A stretch of 64,000 nucleotides of DNA from Chroococcus sp. FPU101 (GTDB lineage Bacteria; Cyanobacteriota; Cyanobacteriia; Cyanobacteriales; Microcystaceae), in NCBI RefSeq assembly GCF_017312365.1, contig NZ_BLJI01000002.1, positions 1 to 64,000 of the forward strand, read 5' to 3'. Of this stretch, positions 27,523 to 38,167 are shown in pieces. A program made the translations under genes and the position numbers. The notes beneath the pieces were generated by a model. It saw only the letters and a program-made list of their open reading frames with translations, did no database searches and was not told the origin of the DNA. How positions within the stretch are numbered: position 1 is the first letter of the stretch; every line of letters starts with the position of its first letter.

Positions 27523-27544
27523 TGGGTGGAAAAGTCTCCACCCA
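27523..27544 (-). terminator. Terminator between convergent genes
   Basis: TGGGTGGA and TCCACCCA form an 8-bp stem. On the minus strand it is followed by a T-rich run (ATTTTTTAA), which terminates the DUF4278 gene. It could also serve the secreted-protein gene on the plus strand. Confidence 0.75.
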
Positions 27545-27585: not shown

Positions 27586-27909
27586 TTATAGCCCGATGTC
27601 TGTCGCTAAACGAGTCAAGACATTTTGATGACGTTTGCGGGTTTCTTTTTCTTGATTAAAGACTGACAGACGTGCTTTTTCTTGAATCGAAGTAGCCGAC
27701 TTTCCATCGAAAACGGTTTCAACTGTACTCGCTTTGTTGTATGCAACTCCCCGATAAGTTAAATTAACGGTCGGTTGTAAAACAAATGGTTTTTTTAGAT
27801 TGCGGAATCTCCAATCAAGACCCCGATATTTTCCGCCAGTCTCGCCATCTGTCGTTTCAACAACAGGAGGGTTGTAATCGTAGCTAACGCCGCGATAAGT
27901 AAGTTTCAT
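27586..27909 (-). CDS. DUF4278 protein under a glutamine riboswitch
   Basis: The 107-residue protein has two DUF4278 units: MKLTYRGVSYDYNPP at the start and VNLTYRGVAYNKA near residue 50, followed by a basic helical tail (EKARLSVFNQEKETRKRHQ). The chosen ATG 27909 has a good ribosome site GAGGAG and gives the conserved MKLTYRG start; the frame up to 27927 is not needed. A glutamine-type riboswitch lies 40 bases upstream. This fits the 'downstream-peptide' RNA class, which precedes short ORFs in cyanobacteria. A role in nitrogen control is inferred from that context only. Confidence 0.88.
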   Translation of the reverse strand: MKLTYRGVSYDYNPPVVETTDGETGGKYRGLDWRFRNLKKPFVLQPTVNLTYRGVAYNKASTVETVFDGKSATSIQEKARLSVFNQEKETRKRHQNVLTRLATDIGL

Positions 27910-27948
27910 GTTTTTTTCGCTCCTCAAGTTAATGATGTGTGGTTTGAG

Positions 27949-28013
27949 GCGCGTTCCTTCGGGAGTTTTCCCTACTTCCGTCTTTTCTGGAATTTCTAGA
28001 GAAAAGATGAACG
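27949..28013 (-). ncRNA. Glutamine riboswitch (glnA / downstream-peptide motif)
   Basis: On the minus strand the element reads CGTTC..., a CTTTTCT/AGAAAAG hairpin, then GACGGAAGTAGGGA, a GGGA-AAAC-TCCC hairpin, and CCCGAAGGAACGCGCC. CGTTC pairs with GAACG to form P1. The GACGGAAGTAGG and GAAGGAACGC cores match the known glutamine-binding motif. It ends about 40 bases before the DUF4278 start. In this class glutamine binding changes the expression of the downstream ORF; the direction here is not shown by the sequence. Confidence 0.9.
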
Positions 28014-28025
28014 AAATTTATTTCT

Positions 28026-28060
28026 GTATCTATTGTTACTGTTTTACAAAAAAATGTCAA
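28026..28060 (-). promoter_or_regulatory. Promoter with overlapping NtcA box, upstream of the riboswitch
   Basis: On the minus strand TTGACA (28055-28060) is followed after 17 bases by AACAAT (28032-28037), a plausible -35/-10 pair. The NtcA box GTA-N8-TAC at 28026-28039 covers the -10. NtcA at this position would block transcription, as known for the gif genes of cyanobacteria, some of which also carry glutamine riboswitches. Confidence 0.6.
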
Positions 28061-28081
28061 GGGTTAAAATCTTTTTAACCC
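28061..28081 (-). terminator. Hairpin after the 28107 gene
   Basis: GGGTTAAAA and TTTTTAACCC form a near-perfect stem with a very small loop just downstream of the secreted-protein gene on the minus strand. It lies immediately upstream of the TTGACA promoter. There is no strong T-run beyond the stem, so termination is only likely. Confidence 0.45.
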
Positions 28082-28106
28082 CCCAAAAAAAGTAGTAATG
28101 TTACGA

Positions 28107-37999: not shown

Positions 38000-38167
38000 T
38001 TAAATCGTGTAAGCAATACCGCGATATTTTAGATTTTTAGGGGTTAAAGACTGAGTAGCGAGAGAACTAATTTGATATGGAACACCGCGAAATTTAAGGA
38101 TTTTATTAATTGAGAAAGCAGGATAAGATTGAGCATGATAAAATTGACCACGATAAGAAAGAAACAT
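38000..38167 (-). CDS. Short DUF4278-type protein
   Basis: This ORF of 55 residues starts MFLSYRGQFYHAQSY and contains two more YRG/FRG units (LKFRGVPYQIS and LKYRGIAYTI at the C-terminus). It lies 62 bases upstream of the other short DUF4278 gene on the same strand; the pair may form one transcript. The conserved YRG-x-x-Y units are the only evidence for the family, but they occur three times in 55 residues. Confidence 0.62.
   Translation of the reverse strand: MFLSYRGQFYHAQSYPAFSINKILKFRGVPYQISSLATQSLTPKNLKYRGIAYTI

Follow-up and report, generated by a model that had tools for sequence, protein, structure and literature searches.

In the 64,000-nucleotide window of Chroococcus sp. FPU101 DNA (the whole stretch that was analyzed), a small gene on the minus strand has, judging from its sequence, the architecture of gifB/IF17: a DUF4278 domain followed by the core of IF7, an inactivating factor (IF) of glutamine synthetase (GS). 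It probably encodes a gifB-like, tailless IF17-type factor that acts on GS and is controlled by both NtcA and a glutamine riboswitch. Since the predicted control matches what has been published for gifB, the result is chiefly a clear identification, and the tailless gene raises the question of whether the arginine helix alone stops, slows, or shields GS. The sequence-only reading had described a complete riboswitch core, a DUF4278 gene behind it, and a TTGACA-N17-AACAAT promoter covered at its -10 hexamer by GTA-N8-TAC; all of these elements, including both riboswitch cores, were found again at the positions listed in Table 1. The IF core and the absence of the tail were both missed by that reading.

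Table 1. Features of the gifB-like locus (positions in the window)
Feature	Position	Strand	Remarks
-35 hexamer TTGACA	28055..28060	minus	Promoter call
-10 hexamer AACAAT	28032..28037	minus	N17 from -35; promoter 10/12 consensus
NtcA-type box GTAACAATAGATAC (GTA-N8-TAC)	28026..28039	minus	Predicted; overlaps -10
Type-1 glutamine riboswitch aptamer	27948..28015	minus	RF01739
Anti-Shine-Dalgarno strand CGCGCCTCAA	27944..27953	minus	Sequence and fold; follows aptamer
Shine-Dalgarno strand TTGAGGAGCG	27918..27927	minus	Complementary to 27944-27953 except for one G.A mismatch
gifB-like gene, 107 aa	27586..27909	minus	ATG 27909; stop included
DUF4278 domain (PF14105), aa 1-57	27739..27909	minus	Pfam, 92 bits
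IF7-type core, aa 74-107	27589..27690	minus	R80, K92, R93, R100; no C-terminal tail
Terminator-like hairpin	27523..27544	minus	~40 nt 3' of gifB-like gene

The ATG at 27909 is likely the start codon; a TTG at 27927, the start in a mechanical list of open reading frames, lies inside the Shine-Dalgarno hairpin. A second terminator-like hairpin (28059-28083) abuts the -35 hexamer and probably belongs to the upstream gene. By eye, a hairpin with matching base changes is also seen at this place in L052, from the same-genus relative.

IF17, the gifB product, is described as a DUF4278 domain joined to an IF7-like moiety (PMC6316151), its size is given as 149 aa (PMC7760959), and its lysine K102 and three arginines are tied to GS binding (PMC6316151). 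In the Chroococcus protein, residues 74 to 107 matched a profile of relatives at 49.7 bits, a profile that includes the protein's own core. Independently of that profile, the same residues matched positions 2 to 35 of 66 in the NCBIfam equivalog IF7A (NF052599; E 1.2e-4), a weak match (22.2 bits, under the cut-off of 70) that was in register. The three arginines were conserved in 62, 63, and 63 of 63 IF cores (62 riboswitch-linked cores plus that of the host genome's own IF7); in the host protein they are R80, R93, and R100, and K92 is the K102-equivalent lysine. Another protein of this family, 149 aa long, has its lysine at 102 and an arginine at 110, the numbers used for IF17, and the host protein grouped with this relative (83/87, open fork) in a tree of 45 proteins, for which tails had been removed first, the partial-tail proteins L083 and L116 had been left out, and L041 was not included. 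With an IF7-type core as its C-terminal half, the gene itself is gif-like. Sequence searches of the PDB returned no relative of the gifB-like protein (best E, 1.3) or of the host IF7 (best E, 0.87). An AlphaFold model made from 7 sequences (mean pLDDT, 69; pTM, 0.31) was too weak for a fold search; it predicted a long helix at residues 69 to 104, with block means of 87 and 90 at residues 81 to 100, and was unsure for DUF4278.

In comparison with a same-genus relative, dN/dS was ~0.08 for DUF4278, 0.14 for the IF core, and 0.81 for the linker, all from small counts (5 nonsynonymous and 8 synonymous differences in the IF core). Because dN/dS is low in both DUF4278 and the IF core, selection maintains the protein in its shortened form, which bears out the earlier proposal of a nitrogen-control peptide rather than a random open reading frame. 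The same values argue against a decaying gene that has lost its tail and whose remainder is drifting. The tail is indeed gone, and in a profile search that read through stops at the host locus, the match ended at position 35 of 65, so that no tail remnant was seen there; however, the same-genus genome has the same protein end, and the promoter, riboswitch, and Shine-Dalgarno site are intact, making decay extremely unlikely. The closest named relative was that of Aphanothece hegewaldii (79% identity in the best segment), in which three genes neighboring the gifB-like gene are also conserved. Gene neighbors were conserved in one of the five loci tried (L037, and not L038, L039, L011, or L133).

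By itself, the NtcA-type box is unremarkable. GTA-N8-TAC showed no clear excess in the window (10 seen versus 9.0 expected), and TTGACA-N14-17-GTA-N8-TAC showed no clear excess in the genome (4 versus 2 for a backwards control pattern); therefore, we surveyed the position of the box across 134 riboswitch loci. These came from matches in 291 genomes of the host class and 50 genomes of the host family, in which 172 and 29 genomes, respectively, had a riboswitch match. Ninety loci (30 + 60) were taken from the best ~150 riboswitch matches of a longer list, and all 48 places on a second list were used, 4 of them already among the 90. Two duplicates, L062 (= L075) and L150 (= L065), were removed, and related genomes are over-represented in the survey. 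Downstream genes were sorted by profiles to which some of the surveyed loci had themselves contributed; the first downstream gene encoded DUF4278 at 87 loci, an IF core at 62, and both at 43, while 3 of the 134 loci had no open reading frame of 40 aa from an ATG within 260 nt.

A strict box starting 18 to 32 nt upstream of the aptamer was found at 67 of 87 DUF4278 loci and was absent from the other 20. It was present at 5 of 28 loci with neither DUF4278 nor an IF core and at none of the 19 IF-core loci that lack DUF4278; shuffled sequences gave ~0.3 for the DUF4278 loci and ~0.1 to 0.2 per locus group. Just one further strict box occurred in the survey between -150 and -40. TTGACA with at most one mismatch stood 12 to 26 nt before the box at 51 of 71 box loci (a set that excludes L070, a box-bearing DUF4278 locus read from L151 and counted among the 67), versus a mean of 6.2 and a maximum of 15 in 200 shuffles, and the exact hexamer stood 15 to 16 nt before it at 38 of them. 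The box thus stands above chance, because it is found in the same place at 67 of 87 DUF4278 riboswitch loci. With the transcription start that we infer at 28025, the center of the host box (28032.5) would lie at -7.5 and coincide with the position reported for the NtcA site of Synechocystis gifB (-7.5; PMC6316151).

The aptamer matched the full RF01739 model (positions 1 to 53 of 53; 58.6 bits versus a cut-off of 35; E 2.4e-10), and no further RF01739 riboswitch was found elsewhere in the 5.29-Mb host genome (98.94% complete). This model describes the type-1 glutamine riboswitch (glnA motif), for which a DUF4278 gene is the main setting reported in PMC6316151, and here, too, it adjoins one. 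The host aptamer has no notable difference from this type, whereas the Shine-Dalgarno hairpin contains a G.A mismatch. In the fold, CGCGCCTCAA and TTGAGGAGCG form 6+3 base pairs flanking this mismatch. The anti-Shine-Dalgarno strand begins with the two bases that end the 3' strand of the aptamer P1 helix, and these two, together with the next C, make the three outer pairs of the hairpin. The isolated hairpin came to -10.2 kcal/mol when the three aptamer-side bases were included and to -4.3 kcal/mol when they were left out; hence, it would be expected to loosen as the aptamer folds. By analogy, the C after P1 may be the counterpart of C60, opposite which, according to a review (PMC11477058), a junction G is inserted into P1 in a ligand-driven manner. 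The whole leader was no more stable than its shuffles (z, -1.02; equaled by 33 of 200), and when the aptamer was enforced in the fold model, the Shine-Dalgarno site was still paired at 0.93 to 1.0, the mismatched base excepted, so that the predicted switch has the energy difference as its sole basis.

Pairing of the Shine-Dalgarno site with the stretch after the aptamer is common to most relatives. Among 105 leaders (loci with DUF4278 or an IF core plus GGAACG, a set that does not include L070), the six bases following GGAACG had a perfect six-base partner near the start codon in 82, versus 0.35 expected with shuffled sequence; 18 leaders had five pairs and 5 had four. Where the anti-Shine-Dalgarno bases had changed (13 leaders), the change was fully compensated in 3 (6/6; L073 and L074, which share a genome, and L118), with one pair fewer in 6 and two fewer in 4. 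The host gifB-like leader is not among the 82 perfect pairings; its helix passes through the G.A mismatch.

The proposed control combines these elements. When nitrogen is scarce, active NtcA would occupy the box over the -10 hexamer and block transcription; when nitrogen is plentiful, NtcA would leave, and mRNA would be made from about 28025. As glutamine rises, the aptamer would fold and reclaim the last P1 bases and the next base from the hairpin that hides the Shine-Dalgarno site, and the freed site would allow more translation. Through the arginine-rich helix in the IF core, the protein would then bind GS and damp its activity, closing a feedback loop, and DUF4278 probably stabilizes the protein, a role reported for the N terminus of IF17 (PMC6316151). 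Synechocystis gifB is repressed by active NtcA and switched on by glutamine, a dual control that has been published (PMC6316151). The earlier suggestion that the DUF4278 protein would be made when NtcA is inactive and glutamine is high agrees with this logic, and the position of the box, its conservation, and the riboswitch platform fit the analogy.

The likeness to gifB/IF17 of Synechocystis sp. PCC 6803 takes in the DUF4278 N terminus, the IF7-like C terminus, the three arginines plus the lysine equivalent to K102, and the type-1 glutamine riboswitch of the 5' untranslated region; a putative NtcA box would lie at -7.5 if transcription starts at 28025. In contrast, the host protein has 107 aa and lacks the C-terminal tail of ~31 residues. 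The arginine-rich core and a predicted NtcA box are shared with gifA/IF7, but IF7 has a tail and no DUF4278, and the only riboswitch match in the host genome is at the gifB-like gene. The host genome also encodes NtcA, GlnA, and a canonical IF7 (L043; 107 bits), upstream of which is a separate box, GTAACATTATATAC (by eye). Another small, basic, NtcA-repressed nitrogen regulator is PirA (Ssr0692; PMC8092223), which differs from the host protein, as far as its description in that source goes, in having 51 aa and in binding PII, whereby it blocks NAGK activation. We rejected PirA as the identity because the host protein has an IF core and DUF4278, and DUF4278 goes unmentioned in the PirA papers found (e.g., PMC8092223).

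A full IF tail extends 30 to 31 residues past core position 34. The gifB-like protein stops at position 34 of the 65-position model and has no tail, and the tail motif YW..IQGK...YDRS...S is absent from it. Among 62 surveyed IF proteins, 36 had a full tail, 24 had at most 7 residues, and 2 fell in between. The tailless proteins made up 24 of 31 in the host order versus 0 of 31 outside it, a comparison in which denser sampling of the host family inflates the 24, and 19 of the 24 have no DUF4278. On the tree, the tail state of the seven tailless DUF4278 proteins needs 2 changes; since the well-supported branches force just one, they may have a single origin. Many IFs of the host order thus end right after the arginine helix, a natural deletion that poses the question of how GS binding and GS inactivation are divided between the parts of an IF. 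Judging from literature listings, we recognized no paper on tailless IFs; as far as these sources go, the tailless IF17-type variant would be new, and the dual control is already known.

Because the tail measures 30 to 31 residues in 36 of the 62 IF proteins, it probably does something, and a protein without it could bind GS through the three arginines without inactivating it, competing with IF7 and buffering or delaying inactivation to an extent set by glutamine. The presence of a full IF7 in the host genome is in line with such a role, as are G311 (L166) and G312 (L165), where a full-length IF7 and an IF with a short tail are tandem genes of one strand, preceded by a GTA-N8-TAC box. However, G327 to G329 (L059 to L061; 2.5 to 3.1 Mb) have kept a tailless IF core under riboswitch control and yielded no IF at E<=0.001 in a profile search with alignment A1, and in G296, G297, and G333 the sole IF found has a short tail. 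An antagonist acting alone is hard to see in these genomes, in which no full IF was found, and we consider competition with IF7 unlikely compared with direct damping of GS. A broader reading, which we offer tentatively, is that tailless IFs could form a distinct and recurrent class in the host order, with or without DUF4278, under a riboswitch and/or an NtcA box and sometimes beside a full-length factor. The arginine helix alone would bind GS in this class and provide a graded or competitive brake at a dose set by glutamine, in contrast to the full stop of IF7/IF17. In the host family, an IF was found at E<=0.001 in 40 of 50 genomes. Eight further places were read in this family: G231, G296, G297, G308, and G333 each have a short-tailed factor extending 6 to 16 residues past the core (by eye), close to a box and with no visible aptamer core; G311 and G312 have the tandems described above; and for the IF match in G295, pattern searches found no reading frame.

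DUF4278 has other uses, since 44 of the 87 DUF4278 riboswitch genes lack an IF core, and the gifB-like protein could have moved to another target, as PirA has PII, keeping nitrogen control and giving up control of GS. Retention under selection of the arginines and the lysine linked to GS binding argues against this, and we regard a change of target as very unlikely; action on GS remains the preferred reading.

Other genes also follow the same riboswitch. A protein of 74 to 76 aa with two hydrophobic stretches (by eye) is found behind it at 16 loci in the host family (L064 to L066, L069, L135, L136, L138, L140, and L142 to L149), none of which has a strict NtcA box. One representative matched no Pfam family above the cut-off and no NCBIfam entry, and the host genome has just a distant relative (31% identity) that is not riboswitch linked. 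In the sister genome of the same genus (G298), a second riboswitch with a box (L132) precedes an 89-aa protein that was sorted by profile as having neither DUF4278 nor an IF core. The host genome itself has five further DUF4278 genes, at 38009-38167 (minus strand) and in C4, C11, C26, and C36 (L003 to L007), and a genome search found no riboswitch at any of the five. The C11 protein has a different C terminus (RRLE...GD..L), which resembles by eye those of riboswitch-linked proteins of other genomes, such as L081, L091, and L107.
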